Source: Bdellovibrio sp. KM01 (GTDB lineage Bacteria > Bdellovibrionota > Bdellovibrionia > Bdellovibrionales > Bdellovibrionaceae). Taken from it: 64,000 nt of DNA. The DNA is taken from positions 2,480,001-2,544,000 of the forward strand of contig NZ_CP058348.1 of assembly GCF_013752535.1 (NCBI RefSeq), given 5' to 3'. Shown here one piece after another: positions 2,807-14,748 of this stretch (the stretch's first letter is position 1; each line of letters opens with the position of its first letter). The translations under genes were made by a program, and so were the position numbers. A model generated the notes under the pieces. It saw nothing but the letters and a program-made list of their open reading frames with translations. It was not told the DNA's origin and did not search any database.

Positions 2807-3748
2807 CTAGTGGGACTCGCTCGAAACACCCACAATACCTGCTGTTTTAAAATTGTCGGTCAATAACTCGGAGTGAAATAAGGTGGACAAATCTTGGGCA
2901 TCACGCACCATTTGCGCGCCATCCAACAGTAAATCCAGGCCGCCTAAAAAATGTGGATCCAGCGGATGACCCGGCACGACCCAAACTGGACGCGAAAGCT
3001 CTGCAGCCTGGTGTGCCGTGATCAAAGTTCCACTGCGACGTCTTGCCTCCACCAATAAAGTGGCACAACCAAGCGCCGCTATCAGACGATTGCGATGATG
3101 AAAAAGACGCTTATGCATCATCTGCTGCGGATCGTATTCACTGATGAAACAGCCTCCCCGATCAAGCACAGGAGTGATCCATTCCTGCAAGCTGCTGGGA
3201 TAAATTTCTCCCAGTCCCGAAGGCAGCACCACCGCCGTCGGAATGCTTTTACGCAAAGCCAAAGAGTGCGCTTTTTGATCTACACCACGGGCTCCACCAC
3301 TGATCACCAATGGCATTTGCTTTTCTAAAAATAACGCCAGCTCTTGCTCCATCCATTTTAATGAATCCGCACTGGGCTCGCGACTGCCGACAATGGAAAT
3401 GGAACGCTCTATCATCCAACAAGGCGCCCCCCGATAAGAAAGCGTCAAGGGTGGCTCAGCCATGCGATAACACTGCGCCGGGAACAACGGATCACCATAA
3501 CAGATGAACTGCATGCCCTGCATTTGCCAGCGCACAGTTTCTGCACACAGATCTTTAAACAAAGAAAAATTCTTTTCTAAAGAATCGCCAAGCTCTGGCA
3601 GATATTCCTGCATGGCCTGGCGGAGATAAAATTCTGTCAGACAACCGATCTGCGAAAGACGCAAATAAGTCTGATGGATCTCGTCGCGATGAACGCGATA
3701 AAGGGGATGGGATTTTATAAGTTGGGAGAGAGCATGGATTTCAGTCAT
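2807..3748 (-). CDS. dprA: DNA-processing protein DprA/Smf
   Basis: DprA binds incoming single-stranded DNA during natural transformation and loads RecA. The Rossmann-like core is clear: SISIVGSREPS (about 117-126), SGGARGVDQKAH (about 150-161), LPSGLGEIYP, FHHRNRLIAALG (about 216-227), and EARRRSGTLITAHQAAELSRPVWVVPGHP (about 234-262). About 110 residues precede the core, as in other DprA proteins. The C-terminal winged-helix DML1 domain of many homologues is absent; the protein ends at residue 313. The ATG at 3748 directly follows the T-tract of a terminator hairpin, with no clear Shine-Dalgarno sequence, so either a downstream start is used or expression depends on read-through. The two comEC genes lie 2.5 kb away. 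Confidence 0.93.
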   Translation of the reverse strand: MTEIHALSQLIKSHPLYRVHRDEIHQTYLRLSQIGCLTEFYLRQAMQEYLPELGDSLEKNFSLFKDLCAETVRWQMQGMQFICYGDPLFPAQCYRMAEPPLTLSYRGAPCWMIERSISIVGSREPSADSLKWMEQELALFLEKQMPLVISGGARGVDQKAHSLALRKSIPTAVVLPSGLGEIYPSSLQEWITPVLDRGGCFISEYDPQQMMHKRLFHHRNRLIAALGCATLLVEARRRSGTLITAHQAAELSRPVWVVPGHPLDPHFLGGLDLLLDGAQMVRDAQDLSTLFHSELLTDNFKTAGIVGVSSESH

Positions 3749-6298: not shown

Positions 6299-7213
6299 AT
6301 GATTATTCTTATTCTCCTTGCCTTGAGCTTGAGCAATTGCACGCAGGACACCATGCTGAATAATGCATCAAGCCTTTCTCAGAGTTATCAACAAAAGTGT
6401 CTTACATTCATCCCGCGCGAGTCAGAAAATTACTCTGCACTGACCTCAATAGTGTGTGGTGAAAAATTAAACGATCAGAACCTGAAACAGAATTTGGTGA
6501 AAACATCGCTCATTCATATATTCGTGATTTCCGGATCTCATCTTCTTTTGCTCGACGAACTTTTTGCGGTTTTAAGAATTCCATTTTTTGTAAGATTCTT
6601 AATTTTGAGCTTTTACTCCTTGATCGTCGGCTGGCAACCACCCGCCGTAAGAGCCTTATCTGCATTGGGTTTGCGAGGACTTTTTAAATCACGTGGTTGG
6701 AAATTTCCGCCGGATTTAATGACGATGATTGCGGGATGTTTCACGCTCGCACTTTTTCCTGCGTGGTGGAACTCACCATCTCTGCTGATGAGTTGGTGTG
6801 CCAGTTTGGCACTGGCATGGACATCGCTGTTAAAAATAAAAAAAGTTTTTCCTCGCTTGTTGTTCAATCAATGCGCAGTTTTTATTTTCATGTGTGCTCC
6901 TCTGTGGGGCCTGAGTTCACTGCACCCCCTCGCACTGCTTTACAATCTGTTATTAGGGCCCGTGGTTTCTTACATTTTACTACCGCTAGGGTTTGTAAGC
7001 GTAATCATTCCATCCGTAGTGGGAGTGTTTGATTTTGTAATGACGGGCTTCTCCCAAATCCTGAAATGGGCCTCTGAACCTGTTCCCGGTGTCTCTGCGA
7101 AACAGATTTCAATATCCACATTATGGTTTTGGATTTTTGCGTGGCACATCTTCTTTCACTTTTTTCGGTTACGACTCCGCCAAGGAAAGGATGCTGCGTG
7201 GAATGGGTTTTAA
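6299..7213 (+). CDS. comEC: ComEC/Rec2 DNA-uptake channel domain, stand-alone
   Basis: A 304-residue polytopic membrane protein corresponding to the Competence domain of ComEC, the inner-membrane channel that takes up transforming single-stranded DNA. Diagnostic motifs are IFVISGSHLLLL (about 74-85, family consensus VSGLH) and GWQPPAVRALSALGLRGLF (about 111-129, consensus G..PS..RA), followed by several long hydrophobic helices to the end. It is short: full ComEC is commonly 600-800 residues. The N-terminal OB-like DUF4131 part is missing, and the metallo-beta-lactamase part is encoded by the next gene. An in-frame TAA at 6284 rules out a longer N-terminus in this frame. The final codons overlap the next gene by 16 bases. 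It is named here for its domain; the gene is one half of a split comEC. Confidence 0.88.
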   Translation: MIILILLALSLSNCTQDTMLNNASSLSQSYQQKCLTFIPRESENYSALTSIVCGEKLNDQNLKQNLVKTSLIHIFVISGSHLLLLDELFAVLRIPFFVRFLILSFYSLIVGWQPPAVRALSALGLRGLFKSRGWKFPPDLMTMIAGCFTLALFPAWWNSPSLLMSWCASLALAWTSLLKIKKVFPRLLFNQCAVFIFMCAPLWGLSSLHPLALLYNLLLGPVVSYILLPLGFVSVIIPSVVGVFDFVMTGFSQILKWASEPVPGVSAKQISISTLWFWIFAWHIFFHFFRLRLRQGKDAAWNGF

Positions 7214-7956
7214 GATTTTCACTTTTCTCATTGGTGTTGATAACTTTCAGCGCTACGCCGGTGGCAAATAAATCTGTGTTCTCATATCTCGTGATATGGA
7301 ACGTCGGCCAAGGACAATGGGTGACTTCAGTTGACACCACCACCTGCCGACATTTTGACGTCGGTGGCGAACGATTTCCGTGGGCGAAAATCGCAAAGCT
7401 TTGCCGCGATAAAAATAACAAAATTTACCTCAGCCACTGGGATTGGGATCATATCGGTGCGTTAGCGAAATGGCCTTCCTCGTGGCAGAGCTGTCTGGCG
7501 ATGAGGCCACAGGGAATTTCTTCACCGGGAAAAATGCGCCTGCTGGAAAAGTTTTCTGATTGCCCCGACAAATTGGATATTCCCCACTGGCAGGGGTTAA
7601 CGGCTTTAAAAAAAACAAAAAAGTCTGAACGCAAAGCCGACACAAACGCGGCAAGCCAGATCACATCTTACAACGGCTTTTTATTCCCTGGCGATTCACC
7701 GGTAAAGGCGGAATTACTGTGGCAAAGTCTGCCTTGGGTGCGCGAAACTCGGGTTTTAGTGCTGGGCCATCACGGCTCTCGGACGAGCACATCAGATGAG
7801 CTATTAACTCACTTGCCACGTCTTACGATGGCTGTCGCATCCGCGCGCTATGCACGCTACAAGCATCCCCACGCCGAAGTGATTTATCGGCTAAAAAAGC
7901 GTCACATTCCCCTGCTAAAAACAGAGGATTGGGGAAATATTTGGTTTGAATATTAA
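7198..7956 (+). CDS. ComEC metallo-beta-lactamase domain, stand-alone exported protein
   Basis: A 252-residue protein carrying the C-terminal MBL-fold domain of ComEC. Seen motifs are NVGQGQW (consensus DVGQGD), SHWDWDHIGAL (the metal-binding HxDxDH), LVLGHHGSRTSTS (consensus VGHHGS.TS), YARYKHPHAEVIYRLKK and the terminal TEDWGNIWF, so the domain is complete. The start is placed at GTG 7198, because AAGGA lies 6 bases upstream and no ATG is available in this frame. It overlaps the channel gene by 16 bases, suggesting translational coupling. The start adds a hydrophobic segment (VLRFSLFSLVLITFSATPVA) that would serve as a signal peptide or anchor and place the domain in the periplasm. In fused ComEC proteins this domain is proposed to degrade the non-transported strand. 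Confidence 0.87.
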   Translation: MEWVLRFSLFSLVLITFSATPVANKSVFSYLVIWNVGQGQWVTSVDTTTCRHFDVGGERFPWAKIAKLCRDKNNKIYLSHWDWDHIGALAKWPSSWQSCLAMRPQGISSPGKMRLLEKFSDCPDKLDIPHWQGLTALKKTKKSERKADTNAASQITSYNGFLFPGDSPVKAELLWQSLPWVRETRVLVLGHHGSRTSTSDELLTHLPRLTMAVASARYARYKHPHAEVIYRLKKRHIPLLKTEDWGNIWFEY

Positions 7957-8417
7957 GGAGTGCATTTTTGAATGCCTTCGTTGTCGTTACGGCATTCTAA
8001 AGGTTTTTTACAGAAATCATATTGGGAAGCACAAAGCTGGTTTGCACTCCCCTGGCCGTATTCCCCACCGACGCAGGCTTTGACACCGTCTCCGCGGTCT
8101 TTACAGCGCGTTGGATATTTACAATAGGAGTTATTATCCCCGCAAAGATCGCCGTTATTACCGACATTCGGAGATGAATCCAGGCACAACATCACTTTGT
8201 CGCCGCGATCCTGACATCTTAACGGGTAGGAACACAGACCTGCGGCCCCGGCGCAGTTATCGCCTTTCTTACCCGCTCCCATCGTGGTTCCTACACAAAC
8301 GACCTTGCCATCGCCACGATCGCGGCAAACACCGCTGCCACGGCAATTGCAATCGATGCTGATGGCGAAACTGACGGAAGAAACCACAAGGCTGACGATA
8401 AAGACGAAATTTCTCAT
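7953..8417 (-). CDS. Secreted Cys-rich protein with four internal repeats
   Basis: A 154-residue protein with a signal peptide (MRNFVFIVSLVVSSVSFA). The mature part is almost entirely four imperfect repeats of about 35 residues, each with two or more Cys around an RDRGDG-like core: CRDRGDGKVVCVG, CQDRGDKVMLCL, CKDRGDGVKACVG and a degenerate CRNDNEGIQKCTP. Repeat starts resemble LCSYPLRC, YCKYPTRC and FCKKPLEC. The even spacing suggests paired disulfides in a small extracellular or periplasmic binding module. No known family was recognised. Its stop codon overlaps that of the convergent comEC MBL gene through a shared TTAA. The operon terminator at 8601-8637 lies upstream. Confidence 0.8.
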   Translation of the reverse strand: MRNFVFIVSLVVSSVSFAISIDCNCRGSGVCRDRGDGKVVCVGTTMGAGKKGDNCAGAAGLCSYPLRCQDRGDKVMLCLDSSPNVGNNGDLCGDNNSYCKYPTRCKDRGDGVKACVGGEYGQGSANQLCASQYDFCKKPLECRNDNEGIQKCTP

Positions 8418-8659: not shown

Positions 8660-10741
8660 TTACCAGAAATACGTCACGCGTACACCGAACTCACGGGGTG
8701 AATTCACTTGGTAAACTTTTGTTCCATAGTAGGCGTTACTTGCATCGTATGTCACATATTTCTGATCAAGGACGTTACGGATATAGAACTCAGAGTTCAA
8801 TTTCCATTGCGCCATCAGGTACGCCAAAGACGTATCCAAGTACCATTGCTCAGGAGCCGACTTGGTATTCGCAGCATCGCCATAGCTTGAAGACAAGTAG
8901 CGAAGTGTATTATCCCAATTCCACATGTCTGTCGGTTTGAACGTGTAGTTTAAGCTTCCTGTCCATGGGCTTGCGAATGGGAACTCGTTACCGTCATAGT
9001 TTTGATTCAAAGGTCCTTTAAAGTCGATGAAGCGTGTATGATTGTAACCCACACCTGCAGTCAATGCATTGTGTGCATTGATATTGTAAGTCGCTTCCAA
9101 TTCCGCACCGTACACTTCAGAGCTTGCCGCATTCACGATCGCTGAATTGTAAGGGTTGTTCGCCGCATATTGCACCAGAACCTGCTGATCCACCCAGTGA
9201 GTGTAGAACACGTTCGCCGCAACTTTTAGCTGATCTTGGACACGCTTATAGCTTAATTCAAAGTTATGAGTCGTTTCTGGATCGTATTCGGCCACTGTGG
9301 ATGTCCAACGATTCACGCTGACACCACCTGTACGGTAGCCCTGAGTATAGGAAATACCGTAAGAACTGATACCTTCCGTCAGGATGTAACCGATTTTAGG
9401 AAGCAGGATACCGCCCTCTTCGTCACCGCTCGCCGTTCTGGTCGAGCCATACACGATATAAGAATCGTACTTGTTCTTCATGTACTCATAACGAAGACCC
9501 AAGTTCATCGCATGATTTTCATTGAACTTATAAAGCATGGAATCAAAGATCGCATACGTGTTTTGGTATTTCTCAGTTTTTTGACGAACCGGGATTGGAC
9601 CTGGAGCTAACACGTTAAAGTTATAGTCATCTTTGATGATGTAGTCGTGATAGTGCAAACCCAAAACGTTTTTAACTTTTTCGCTTTGGTATTTGTACAA
9701 GTTTTCAACGCTGAGGTAGCTGTCCGTGTGATCCTCATAACGAGTTCCAGCTGTTGCAGCTGAAGTTCCGTCTGCATCGGCGGTCGCGTCCTGGTCACTT
9801 TGCGAGTATGCCAGAATCGTTTCATTAGAGGAGTTTTCGTTGATTTTTTTAGTATAACGAAGGCTTGTCTGTTGATTATTCGTCAACGCACGGTTGTCGA
9901 CATCCTCATACACTTTATAATCAAAAGGATCTGTGGATTGCGAATAAGTTCCGCCAGCTTCATTGTTAAGAACTTTGATGTTCCAACGAATCTCATCAAA
10001 GGCGTTCAATCTATACACTAAATCCTGAGAGATATAGTTCTTATCCTGACGTCCCCAGCGTTCGTTACCCGTCGTGACGTTTTCGATGAAGCCATCATAA
10101 CGTTCCACGTTCACAGACGTACGACCGAACAGGTTTTCGCTTAATTTATAATTGGAAACCACGCCCACTTCTTTATATCCATAGCTACCCAGACCGGCTT
10201 TAACTGCGCCCTCTGTTGCATCGGACGCTTTACGGTGGAACAAAAGGATATTACCCGCAAGCGAGTTGATACCCTGAGTTGTGGATTGGGCACCACGATA
10301 GATTTCCACGTGATCCAAGTCCCAGAAATCAAACGCTCCGGCGGAAATTGCCAAGTCCGTCTGGAAAACATCGTCCACCAGGATCGATGCCAAATTGTCT
10401 TTTTGATATCCTGTTACGCCGATATTGTTAATACCGCGCAGACTGAAGGTGTTATCGTTCTTGTTCACTTGAACGTTGGGAAGACCATTGATGGATTTTA
10501 AGGAGTCGGCCTTAACCCCTTTATCATATGACTCGGCTTGGATAACAGTGATGGATTCTGTACTTTCCAAGTAGGACTTGTCTTCTTTATTACCCAGAAT
10601 CTGCACTTGTTGCAGTTTGTAGGTTTCTGCGGTTTTTTCAGTTGTCGCCGTCTCTGATGCCGTCTGTGGTGGTTGTTCCGCTGTCTGGGCATGCACCAAG
10701 CTTGCCTGGACCGTGAACAATGCTGCGATGAAAATTCTCAT
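8660..10741 (-). CDS. TonB-dependent siderophore receptor
   Basis: A 693-residue outer-membrane receptor. It has a signal peptide (MRIFIAALFTVQASLVHA), a TonB-box-like segment (YKLQQVQILGNK), a plug domain at about 55-165 (SITVIQAESYDKGVKADSLKSINGLPNVQVNKNDNTFSLRGINNIG, DHVEIYRGAQSTTQGINSLAGNI), and a 22-strand-type barrel ending in the aromatic RVTYFW. It is the last gene of the siderophore operon, 23 bases after the hydroxylase gene, in the position iutA holds in aerobactin loci (IutA is 733 residues). It most likely imports the ferric form of the siderophore made by this operon. Sequence alone does not prove the ligand. Expression should be repressed when iron is plentiful. Confidence 0.92.
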   Translation of the reverse strand: MRIFIAALFTVQASLVHAQTAEQPPQTASETATTEKTAETYKLQQVQILGNKEDKSYLESTESITVIQAESYDKGVKADSLKSINGLPNVQVNKNDNTFSLRGINNIGVTGYQKDNLASILVDDVFQTDLAISAGAFDFWDLDHVEIYRGAQSTTQGINSLAGNILLFHRKASDATEGAVKAGLGSYGYKEVGVVSNYKLSENLFGRTSVNVERYDGFIENVTTGNERWGRQDKNYISQDLVYRLNAFDEIRWNIKVLNNEAGGTYSQSTDPFDYKVYEDVDNRALTNNQQTSLRYTKKINENSSNETILAYSQSDQDATADADGTSAATAGTRYEDHTDSYLSVENLYKYQSEKVKNVLGLHYHDYIIKDDYNFNVLAPGPIPVRQKTEKYQNTYAIFDSMLYKFNENHAMNLGLRYEYMKNKYDSYIVYGSTRTASGDEEGGILLPKIGYILTEGISSYGISYTQGYRTGGVSVNRWTSTVAEYDPETTHNFELSYKRVQDQLKVAANVFYTHWVDQQVLVQYAANNPYNSAIVNAASSEVYGAELEATYNINAHNALTAGVGYNHTRFIDFKGPLNQNYDGNEFPFASPWTGSLNYTFKPTDMWNWDNTLRYLSSSYGDAANTKSAPEQWYLDTSLAYLMAQWKLNSEFYIRNVLDQKYVTYDASNAYYGTKVYQVNSPREFGVRVTYFW

Positions 10742-10764
10742 TACTCTCTCTTCCTTCTTTCCCT

Positions 10765-12042
10765 TTATAATCCTTTATAGCTAACAAAATTAGGAACCAT
10801 TTTCGATGTTTTATAGTGCTCTTTACCCAGCATATCGTTCAGGATGGTTGCGGATCTCCACGCCATCAAGCTCGTTTGCGGTTCAGAGATTCCATGTCCG
10901 TGACGGCTAAAGTTCATGGCATAGATCTTATTCTGCGAAGGCCCCTTCCATTTCACAGAGAAATTCTTCTGCAAAACAAAGCGACCTGTGTTGTCGAAAT
11001 CAATCAGGTGTTGAATCGGCTCAATGATGTGCGGAATGCGGGTTCTAAAGCCGGTGCTTAGGATCACGATATCCGCATGGTGCGTTTCAGTTTTGTTCGA
11101 GAACGTGCTGCTGACAGTCAGTTTATAGCCATTCCCCGCCTCTTCCAGGCGATCCATGCAACGGGAAGGCAGGATCTCCACGATCGCCTCACTTTGATGA
11201 ACGTGACGAAGTTGATAGATATCATTGTAAAGAGCTTCCAAATACTCTGGAGTATTCCCGTCAGAAGCCATTTTCTGATGGCGCACGATAGGATCTTTAA
11301 GGTTTTGATCTAAACCAAAGAATTCTTCCACGTAATAAGGTGTGAAGTATTCATTCACGAACGGAGAATTGTCCAACGGTTCCAAGTTCGCGCGGCTGGA
11401 AATCAGTCGCGTGCTGCATGGCTCTCCCCATTTGCCTTTAAAGCAATTGCGAAAGATCTCGATCCCCGTTTGCCCGCCACCAATAACAACTACGTTCTTA
11501 CCCGTGACATCCAAAGTTTTAAGATAAGGCGATTTTGCGTGGAATACTTTAGGACCGATGAAGTCTTTGGCAAAATCAGGAACGTTTGGAGTTAGCCCCG
11601 TTCCGATACAGATATTGTCGGATTTAGCGATGTTGTTACCAGAACGAACCTGGAATTGACCATCTTTGAAATTTACTTCGTCGATTTGCGCGCCAAAGTT
11701 CAAACGGTGGTTTAATTGCTTACTTACCCACTGGCAGTACATTTCAAATTCACGGCGAGTCACCACTTGGCGATTCGTGTTCATGAAAGAATAATACAAA
11801 CCATTTTGAACCAGATAGTTCATGAAGCTGTAAGGGTTTGTCGGGTCCGCCCCCATCACCAGGTCTTTGAGGAAAGACGTTTGCATTTCTGAATCTGCAA
11901 ACATGATTTCTGAGTGCCAGTCGAAACTTGGTTTGCCGTCAAAGAAAGCACTGTGGATCCCCGCAGTTTTATCTGCCAAGGCCGCAAGACTTAGATTGAA
12001 GACGCCGATACCAATTCCTATAAGATTGTATTTTTGTTCCAT
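10765..12042 (-). CDS. iucD: Lysine N6-hydroxylase, IucD-like
   Basis: A 425-residue flavin monooxygenase of the IucD/PvdA/SidA family (E. coli IucD is 445). It uses FAD, NADPH and O2 to hydroxylate the side-chain amine of lysine, the first step of aerobactin synthesis. Visible are the FAD motif GIGIGVFNLSLAALAD (about 8-23), the signature FFDGKPSFDWHSEIMFADSEMQTSFLKDLVMGADPTNPYSFMNYL, the NADPH motif VVVIGGGQTGIEIF (about 180), and the C-terminal IVILSTGFRTRIP. Ornithine or a diamine as substrate cannot be excluded from sequence, but the gene order favours lysine. It starts 1 base after the iucC stop and precedes the receptor gene. Confidence 0.9.
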   Translation of the reverse strand: MEQKYNLIGIGIGVFNLSLAALADKTAGIHSAFFDGKPSFDWHSEIMFADSEMQTSFLKDLVMGADPTNPYSFMNYLVQNGLYYSFMNTNRQVVTRREFEMYCQWVSKQLNHRLNFGAQIDEVNFKDGQFQVRSGNNIAKSDNICIGTGLTPNVPDFAKDFIGPKVFHAKSPYLKTLDVTGKNVVVIGGGQTGIEIFRNCFKGKWGEPCSTRLISSRANLEPLDNSPFVNEYFTPYYVEEFFGLDQNLKDPIVRHQKMASDGNTPEYLEALYNDIYQLRHVHQSEAIVEILPSRCMDRLEEAGNGYKLTVSSTFSNKTETHHADIVILSTGFRTRIPHIIEPIQHLIDFDNTGRFVLQKNFSVKWKGPSQNKIYAMNFSRHGHGISEPQTSLMAWRSATILNDMLGKEHYKTSKMVPNFVSYKGL

Positions 12043-12043
12043 C

Positions 12044-13822
12044 TTACAGTGCTCCTTTATTCAATCCCAACACAATGGGATTCATAAGTTCGTCACCGAC
12101 CATGGGGACCGGGCGTTCGTGGGAGTCGGCATAGCCGATCTTGAAACGCACCTTATTTACCAGCACACGAGGCATTTTTTCCGCCAGAAGGTTGACGCTG
12201 TCATCCACATTCAGGTTTTTCCCCGTAGTTGAAAGATAATCGCGAAGGACCTCACCCAGAATTCCGTAAAATTCGTATTCTGAGTATCCGTCGCACTCTT
12301 GTAAAACTTCAGAGATAAACCGTAGAACCGTGACAAAATGTCCCGTGAACAAATCGTGAATCAAATAATTGCGCGGAAGCTGCAACAAATGGCTCGCCAA
12401 GTTCGCAGACTCCTCTACCAGAACAGAACCCTTCGCCACACGAAGATCACCCTGGAAGTCTTTAATGATCAAACCCACCGGAGCGTGATCTTTAAGTTTC
12501 AAAACAATGTTTTGGCCGTGGGAAACCAGGCCGATGCCGTACTTCAATTGCAGATGGTACAACGGCACCACCACGACTTCGAAATACTTGCGAAGCCATT
12601 GGGACATGGTCAGCCCCGAAGACTTCACATAAGCACCCAGCAAAGAATCACCTTCTGTATCTTTATGAAAGAAACTACCAGTAAGAACTGAAAACTCACC
12701 GGCGCCGGTTTTGGATTCTGCGCACTCTCTCCAGATGGCGCCCAAATATTCGTGATAACGGTACGGCGCCAGGGCCACTTGTTTATAAATCGGATGTTGA
12801 AAGCTTACGCCGGCTTTTTCACTTAAGACTTGGACATTTTTAAGAACGTCGTCTTTCGCGCAAATGTCGTTCATCTTTTGGGACAGCTCACCACCCACCG
12901 GAATGTATTTCGCGGCAATTCCACGAATACTGGAAGTGTTTAGGATAGTAACTGGAAGTTTGATATCCCATAGCCCCGGACGACTGACGTTTGAAAGCGT
13001 ACGAATCGAAATTTGCGGTTGATATTGATCACCGAAAACTCCCAAAGCCTTGATAACGCCCGTGGAAAGCTCGCCGGCAAATTGAACCTGAATAAAACGA
13101 TCCCACTGCCATGGGTGAGCCGGAACAAAAACGTGTTCCGACTTGTTGATTTCAAGGTCAGTCAGTACTTGATTGAAACGCTTTAGTTCTGCTTCATCCA
13201 TGGACTGCGCCAAAATAATTTCCGTACTTACTCCTGGCATTTGTGCTGCCAAGGCGGAGTTTTTACGAACTGCCAACCACATCAAACGAAGCAAGGGCTG
13301 ACTTTCCGGAGCAAACTCTGCTAAATCCCCTTCACTCCACGTGATACGACCTTTATTAAGCAAAAGTTTCGGATGGCCATTGAGGATCGACTGAATTTTG
13401 AGGCCGGACCACTTCGTCATTTCAGTCGAAGTTTGTTCTGCTTGTTTTTGTTCGATCCGCAAATCCGAAAACAGCGTGTTGTGCATTTCTTCCAGGAAGT
13501 TTCCAAGAATAATGTCATCCATGCCGGTTTCTTTTTGGCAGTCGATAAAGAATTGACCAGCACTTTTCACCGGCATTTTAACGCCGTCAACAACGCGTAC
13601 GATGGAGTCGGATTCGACTTTGATATCGGTCCAGATCCCCTGCCAACCCTGACAGTGATATTCGATACCACTTTGCAATGCGAACACAAAGTTCTGGCCG
13701 TCTGTCGTCAATGGCTTCAGAATTTGCTCATAGCTCAGCTCCTGAAGGCTTTTCGCCACCAGGTTCTGATTCACCCGCACCCATGCAGATCCAGAATGAA
13801 GAGTGTTCGCTTTTAAATTCAC
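12044..13822 (-). CDS. iucC: NIS siderophore synthetase, IucC-like
   Basis: A 592-residue NRPS-independent siderophore (IucA/IucC) synthetase (E. coli IucC is 580). It should join a second hydroxamate to the citrate intermediate using ATP. Family landmarks are the N-terminal ILNGHPKLLLNKGRITW, FVPAHPWQWDRFIQ (about 235), the ATP-site TLSNVSRPGLWDIKLPVTIL, and YGIGLVSHGQNIVLKLKDHAPVGLIIKDFQGDLR. The start is placed at GTG 13822: it gives a GTGA overlap with the iucB stop and has AGGG about 8 bases upstream. The ATG at 13858 would add 12 residues, lacks a Shine-Dalgarno sequence and would overlap iucB by 40 bases. Assignment as C rather than A type rests mainly on position. Confidence 0.88.
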   Translation of the reverse strand: MNLKANTLHSGSAWVRVNQNLVAKSLQELSYEQILKPLTTDGQNFVFALQSGIEYHCQGWQGIWTDIKVESDSIVRVVDGVKMPVKSAGQFFIDCQKETGMDDIILGNFLEEMHNTLFSDLRIEQKQAEQTSTEMTKWSGLKIQSILNGHPKLLLNKGRITWSEGDLAEFAPESQPLLRLMWLAVRKNSALAAQMPGVSTEIILAQSMDEAELKRFNQVLTDLEINKSEHVFVPAHPWQWDRFIQVQFAGELSTGVIKALGVFGDQYQPQISIRTLSNVSRPGLWDIKLPVTILNTSSIRGIAAKYIPVGGELSQKMNDICAKDDVLKNVQVLSEKAGVSFQHPIYKQVALAPYRYHEYLGAIWRECAESKTGAGEFSVLTGSFFHKDTEGDSLLGAYVKSSGLTMSQWLRKYFEVVVVPLYHLQLKYGIGLVSHGQNIVLKLKDHAPVGLIIKDFQGDLRVAKGSVLVEESANLASHLLQLPRNYLIHDLFTGHFVTVLRFISEVLQECDGYSEYEFYGILGEVLRDYLSTTGKNLNVDDSVNLLAEKMPRVLVNKVRFKIGYADSHERPVPMVGDELMNPIVLGLNKGAL

Positions 13823-14748
13823 AGGAAGTTCCCTAAAAAGAACTTTTCGCGACGACATTCTAGGAGGGCTGCACGTTTATGAGGGAAATCAAATTCCTTC
13901 ACTTTTCTCCATGCTGGGAATGTCTCAACGTAACGAATAATACGCTGATTGTCTGAACGCGGCTCAGCCATGATCTTGCGCGTGCGTGGTTCTTCCAGGA
14001 ACAAGTAGTGGCTGGCTGATTTTAGAATGGCGTCGGTATTTTTGAAGCCCAGGTATTCCATGTTTCCAATCAATAGATGGAAACCACGATCAAAGGCTTC
14101 AGAGTCATAGTACGGGCCCAAGCGATCTTCCAAAGTCCAGTACATTTCAAAATAACCTACAGGAACACCATCGAATTCAACGAAAGTTGGAATGGAATGC
14201 AAATCCGCTAAACCTTTTTCAAGATATTCTTTAAGTTCAGCCTCTGGTTTTGCCAGTTCCCAGAATTCGTTGACATAAGGTTGATTGTGCCAGAAGTGAA
14301 AAGTCTTAAGATCAGTTTCAACGTCCACTACGCGGAAACTGATTGTCTTTCCGATGCTTGGAACGAAACGAGAATAAAGCAATTCTCCAGGATGTGGCTG
14401 TGGGCGAATCGGATGACGAACATCGCCGGAATACATCCACTGTTCGGCTTTCAAAGTTTGCGTCCCATACGTGCACCATAAAGCGGGATTTTGATAAAAG
14501 TCGGCACGATGAGTTGCGATCTGATTGAGCGAAATTGTTTTAAGCTCGGGCTTGTGGGCAAAAAGATGCTCCGTGGCAACTAACGATGCTGCCGAAGAAG
14601 ACTCCTGGGCATGCAGTTGAACTTTATCGCCACTGTCTTCGATATTATATTTCACTGCTGATTCTGGTCCTGAAACGGTCAGAACTCCGTCAGCCAATTC
14701 TGCTGTAAAGTTCTTCTTTTCTTGAACATGCAAGTAAGTTTGTTTCAT
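13819..14748 (-). CDS. iucB: N6-hydroxylysine acetyltransferase, IucB-like
   Basis: A 309-residue GNAT-family protein of the IucB/RhbD siderophore acetyltransferase type (E. coli IucB is 315). It should acetylate N6-hydroxylysine with acetyl-CoA to give the hydroxamate. The C-terminal half has the family pattern: TFHFWHNQPYVNEFWELA (about 150), FVEFDGVPVGYFEMYWTLEDRLGPYY (about 192-217), DRGFHLLIGNMEYLGF, and the CoA-site region RTRKIMAEPRSDNQRIIRYVE. The N-terminal 120 residues are the less conserved beta-rich part found in IucB-like proteins. The ATG at 14748 has AGGA upstream. It lies 8 bases after iucA and overlaps iucC by 4 bases. Confidence 0.88.
   Translation of the reverse strand: MKQTYLHVQEKKNFTAELADGVLTVSGPESAVKYNIEDSGDKVQLHAQESSSAASLVATEHLFAHKPELKTISLNQIATHRADFYQNPALWCTYGTQTLKAEQWMYSGDVRHPIRPQPHPGELLYSRFVPSIGKTISFRVVDVETDLKTFHFWHNQPYVNEFWELAKPEAELKEYLEKGLADLHSIPTFVEFDGVPVGYFEMYWTLEDRLGPYYDSEAFDRGFHLLIGNMEYLGFKNTDAILKSASHYLFLEEPRTRKIMAEPRSDNQRIIRYVETFPAWRKVKEFDFPHKRAALLECRREKFFLGNFL

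Follow-up and report, generated by a model that had tools for sequence, protein, structure and literature searches.

Canonical ComEC/Rec2, as known from B. subtilis and L. pneumophila (PDB 9vc6, 30bt, 9ic4), is a single chain with the domain order OB - Competence - MBL. In the ComECs that have been studied, the OB fold binds DNA and speeds the nuclease only when it is on the same chain, and both nuclease activity and transformation need residues H598, D600, D602, H603, D700 and H725, and in part S728 (PMC12455585; M. glycerini numbering). Some accepted ComECs are nevertheless also without OB/DUF4131 (PMC6299819), and nearly half of the ComECs in sequenced genomes are recorded without a nuclease, the degradation of the second strand being an open question there (PMC8579336). 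The survey of these domains counts what lies inside one protein, and MBL-less ComECs accordingly appear in it as domain gains and losses (PMC6299819). H. pylori is the documented case of a channel-only ComEC, with no such MBL relative in its genome (PMC5031224); in Chlamydia, a neighbouring RNase Z has only been proposed as the nuclease, and competence-domain genes were noted to lie often near genes of the lactamase superfamily (PMC6686042). ComA of Neisseria, which a preliminary description of the DNA analysed here had named as a further channel-only form, does not belong in this group: a list of lineages that gained Lactamase_B includes the Neisseriales (PMC6299819), and an alignment of ComEC MBL motifs contains the N. 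gonorrhoeae protein (PMC8579336).

In Bdellovibrio sp. KM01, ComEC is encoded by two genes, both on the forward strand and between genes of the opposite strand in the window (the whole stretch of 64,000 nucleotides that was analysed). We consider it very probable that this arrangement goes back to an ancient fission of ComEC in the ancestor of the Bdellovibrio class, which would have yielded a two-subunit, OB-less DNA importer. The first gene (6299-7213, + strand) runs from an ATG at 6299 to a stop at 7211-7213 and encodes the channel subunit, a protein of 304 residues that matches the Competence domain (PF03772; E 1.3e-15, 57.9 bits against a cut-off of 23) and TIGR00360 (E 1.7e-12, 47.9 bits against a cut-off of 36.5), and that is modelled by AlphaFold2 with a pLDDT of 91.0. 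It is the single PF03772 match in the whole genome (G000; 3.96 Mb in a single contig), and no fused ComEC was found anywhere in this genome; the OB domain (DUF4131) is absent from the channel protein and reaches at best 15.2 bits in the genome, against a cut-off of 31.6. The metal motif of the channel, HIFVISGSH (residues 73-81; 6515-6541), has an S and not a hydrophobic residue in position eight of the motif as defined in PMC6686042 (H73-IFVI-S78-G79-S-H81); in the 72 split sequences aligned, H73 and S78 are invariant, and H81 is kept in 70. The GWQPPAVRAL motif covers residues 111-120, C34 and C53 (present in 70/72) are typical of the split clade, and the chain closes, by helix comparison and in the model, with a last helix (residues 273-302) and the positively charged tail RLRLRQGK, together 7115-7210. 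A fold search with the channel model returned nothing significant in the PDB set, the full-length ComEC entries known from the sequence comparison (9vc6 and others) likewise not being returned, and is hence uninformative.

The second gene (7198-7956, + strand) starts with a GTG at 7198 in a different frame, overlaps the first by 16 nucleotides and ends with a stop at 7954-7956; profile and structure comparison, together with the junctions of relatives, identify its product of 252 residues as a ComEC-type MBL subunit. Of the 663 positions in the ComEC/Rec2 model, this protein covers 492-661 (E 5.4e-17), while scoring below the cut-off for Lactamase_B. By profile, channel and MBL align to separate parts of one ComEC chain, 241-468 versus 602-793 of 9vc6, and TIGR00361, the model of one-chain ComEC/Rec2, gives the two proteins 27.5 and 61.2 bits over different parts of its length, below its cut-off of 190. 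The predicted structure of the MBL (pLDDT 89.7) has the crystal structure of a ComEC MBL domain, 9ic4, as its top structural match (Foldseek E 1.4e-12; Z 22.2, rmsd 2.8 over 219 residues). Its metal motif HWDWDH (H80-H85; 7435-7452), its PGDS motif (residues 164-167; 7687-7698) with the metal ligand D166, and its GHHGS motif (residues 190-194; 7765-7779) provide H80, D82, D84, H85, D166, H191 and S194, the equivalents of the residues required in the ComECs studied, which are 96-100% conserved; the loop RYKHPH (R220, Y221, H223; 7855-7872) aligns by position to the strand-guiding R688/F689/F691 of L. pneumophila (PMC12455585). From the kept catalytic residues, the subunit is predicted to be a Mn-dependent DNase. 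Four further residues, C50 and C69 (72/72) and C99 and C122 (69/72), are near-invariant cysteines that most fused relatives lack at these places and that, judged by the alignment, are a gain of the split clade; together with C34 and C53 of the channel, they suggest disulphides in the periplasm.

Upstream of the GTG, at a distance of 6 nucleotides, stands AAGGAAAGGA (7182-7191), which contains AGGA and is a plausible Shine-Dalgarno sequence for the MBL gene. A longer in-frame start, ATG 7123, is unsupported, since in many relatives the open frame starts just a short distance, a few nucleotides, ahead of the stop of the channel gene. The N-terminal hydrophobic helix predicted for residues 2-18 (7201-7251) is the counterpart of the helix that precedes the MBL in fused ComEC and is a putative anchor; it could also be a cleaved signal peptide. 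On all these points, open reading frames, profiles and predictions agree with the preliminary description, which had placed the end of the channel and the start of the MBL at these positions, in different frames, had assigned to the two proteins the motifs ISGSHL, GWQPPAVRAL, HxDxDH and GHHGS, had given the MBL a ribosome binding site and an N-terminal helix of its own, and had noted that the OB part was missing.

Two other features of the window lie downstream of the pair. A gene at 7953-8417, convergent with the MBL gene and overlapping its 3' end by 4 nucleotides, encodes a cysteine-rich protein of 154 residues with a signal-like N-terminus, repeats of the type C-x-DRGD-x-C and no Pfam match, and 8660-14748 (- strand) holds a hydroxamate-type siderophore cluster with a TonB receptor, a Lys/Orn monooxygenase, an IucA/IucC synthetase and a GNAT acetyltransferase.

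Bdellovibrio is a predator of bacteria and meets much prey DNA, and most members of its class are predatory as well. It is conceivable, though in our view unlikely, that the pair imports DNA chiefly as a nutrient and less for transformation, its hosts being predators that degrade prey DNA; the search for ComEA in the genome points the same way, since the only match to PF12836 (HHH_3) is Tex, a diverged ComEA being possible. DprA speaks for transformation; its gene lies 2.5 kb from the pair (2807-3748, - strand; PF02481, E 3.2e-60). The nutrient reading is in any case compatible with the split and concerns only its use. The preliminary description had taken dprA as support for a role in DNA uptake: the gene is indeed present nearby, but it is a weak sign of such a role because it is very widespread. 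The genome further has four matches to the secretin domain PF00263, among which those of pili and of type II secretion are not told apart.

The split extends far beyond this genome. In the family, the channel is present in 63 of 66 genomes and the MBL in 51, as separate frames of about 300 and 250-300 residues; across the order, a Competence match occurs in 123 of 141 genomes, almost always in a frame of about 280-340 residues; and one further family of the same class is also split. Neither the genus nor the family yielded a fused frame, and the two-gene arrangement is seen in 73 species of the class whose junction was examined. The preliminary description had named a fused frame in close relatives as what would refute it; the outcome is the opposite, a split conserved class-wide. 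The phylum's other classes mostly have a fused ComEC, in frames of 500-950 residues. All split MBLs share a common descent, forming one clade with a support of 1.0 in the MBL tree. Within this clade nests the only fused relative in the order, a 650-residue ComEC, likewise without an OB domain, from a different family (G078; L129, 1001-2950); since it also pairs with a split genome (G088) in the concatenated tree, with a support of 0.98, and keeps the class-specific cysteines, the best reading is that the split pair was fused again, an assembly error in this fragmented MAG being possible. A second split is found in another class, in families f13 and f14 (G244, G245, G251, G256; L185-L192): as in the Bdellovibrio class, the channel and the C-terminal half of ComEC, which has a hydrophobic N-terminus of its own, are separate genes, but they lie on different contigs, and their MBLs branch apart from the Bdellovibrio-class clade (0.86); this is probably an independent fission.

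Several lineages of the order have the channel without an adjacent MBL (for example G030, G031, G033, G035, G038, G040 and G058-G063, and also G079-G083, G089 and G102-G105), which indicates that the nuclease is dispensable in those lineages. An MBL overlooked beside these channels was considered, but the profile found none adjacent, and the genomes listed gave no match or a weak one (G058). The channel-only loci of the order are L160-L168, L130, L131, L134, L203, L204 and L208-L218. Three genomes that were candidates for the opposite case, an MBL without a channel (G132, G133, G140), have a diverged channel at their loci.

That the two parts can be uncoupled in this way, that the near-invariant cysteines point to a stable domain in the periplasm, and that the genus is predatory would all suit an MBL that loses its helix by cleavage and acts as a free periplasmic nuclease, apart from the channel, for example in the digestion of prey DNA. 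We regard this as improbable: the two genes are strictly adjacent throughout the class, the pair appears to have been re-fused in G078, and the strand-guiding loop is kept; furthermore, an MBL without a channel is never seen where the locus is complete, and a conserved cleavage site was not seen among the sequences of the relatives.

The place of the cut can be read from the junctions of the 73 species. In the fused ComECs of the phylum's other classes and of G078, a helix is followed by a short basic loop, a second helix and the MBL. In the split proteins, the first of these helices closes the channel, followed by a tail that is net positive in 70/73, and the MBL starts with the second, which is a clear hydrophobic stretch in 57/73; the fission thus lies in the basic cytoplasmic loop, and the nuclease would retain an anchor helix. 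The positive-inside rule predicts for the MBL a position on the outer side of the inner membrane, like that in fused ComEC. Relative to the channel, the MBL frame is 2 in 48 species, 1 in 22 and 0 in 3, and a few species have true gaps, of 3 to >70 nucleotides, between the open frames. In 32 of the 48 frame-2 species, the channel stop TGA directly overlaps the MBL start (A/G/T-TGA). Overlap of stop and start is a common arrangement in translational coupling, and it suggests that the pair is probably coupled in this way.

The same junctions bear on programmed ribosomal frameshifting, which the preliminary description had entertained and which would join both frames into a single ComEC. Both window frames are open across the 133 nucleotides before the channel stop, and canonical ComEC is one chain, as frameshifting would have it; but the variable frame relation and the gaps are explained neither by one frameshift signal nor by a sequencing indel, the MBL has a start and a putative ribosome binding site of its own, and a slippery heptamer is not apparent, so that frameshifting is refuted as a general mechanism and is highly improbable here. 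Split frames are also the usual sign of sequencing error and of pseudogene decay of a fused comEC, which can be dismissed with near certainty, as the same arrangement recurs in independent genomes, of which 13 are assembled into a single contig (among them that of B. bacteriovorus strain kdesi, L094), and as selection on both genes is purifying (dN/dS 0.04-0.20, taken only from pairs with measurable dS); with the catalytic residues retained, this upholds the view of a working split already taken in the preliminary description. The dS of the MBL gene against the closest relative, G016, is 0.62, over twofold that of the adjoining channel gene (0.25).

We propose that ComEC was cut in the class ancestor, in the loop between its last two transmembrane helices, into a channel protein and an MBL nuclease that would keep the last helix as an N-terminal anchor in N-in/C-out orientation. 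Their overlapping, probably coupled genes would let the subunits be produced together; on the outer side of the inner membrane, the subunits would then probably come together again, the nuclease degrading one strand of the incoming DNA and the channel passing the other. Separate chains without an OB domain count against a two-subunit importer, given the role of the OB fold (PMC12455585), as do the lack of a ComEA match and the lineages with a channel but no adjacent MBL. The missing OB domain and the unmatched ComEA imply either a reassembly of channel and MBL close enough to make both dispensable, or another protein that feeds the DNA, or a role other than transformation. We lean towards a working two-subunit ComEC that dispenses with the single chain and with the OB domain, being held together by the anchor helix and stabilised by the class-specific disulphides. 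If this is true, it would overturn the view that strand selection requires a single chain carrying the OB domain, the channel and the nuclease.

As surveys count domains per protein, a split ComEC is scored in them as absence of the nuclease. The nuclease gene lies next door in the Bdellovibrio class and elsewhere in the genome in the class of f13 and f14, and some ComECs considered nuclease-less may have their nuclease in the adjoining gene; if the reading of a working two-subunit ComEC is true, some share of the bacteria scored as nuclease-less would carry the ComEC nuclease as a separate gene. Full-length ComEC is hard to produce, and the natural split allows the nuclease and the 304-residue channel to be expressed, deleted and mutated independently, while the sister lineages without the nuclease offer a natural comparison for what the nuclease is for. 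In the literature covered, which is incomplete and mostly lacks subscription papers, no description was found of a ComEC whose own channel and MBL domains are separate proteins, or of competence in Bdellovibrio; a natural two-subunit, OB-less ComEC kept across a class is apparently new.

Among the known systems, the pair of EndA and ComEC in S. pneumoniae resembles the Bdellovibrio pair in that the strand-degrading nuclease is likewise separate and membrane-bound (PMC12455585); EndA, however, is not a domain of ComEC itself, and the ComEC of S. pneumoniae still has an MBL domain that is probably inactive (PMC5031224), whereas the putative nuclease of Bdellovibrio is ComEC's own MBL domain. In the MBL-less ComECs (of H. 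pylori, of Liberibacter crescens, with an OB domain, and Chlamydia CT339), the channel chain likewise stops before the MBL; unlike in these, a ComEC-type MBL is encoded in the Bdellovibrio class by the next, overlapping gene. From canonical ComEC, the Bdellovibrio-class system differs in its two polypeptides, in the lack of OB (DUF4131) and in its extra cysteines (C50/C69/C99/C122 in the MBL and C34/C53 in the channel); it shares with it the HxxxxSGxH motif of the channel, the two-metal site of the MBL, the PGD and HHGS motifs, the R-aromatic-x-H loop, and the helix before the MBL.
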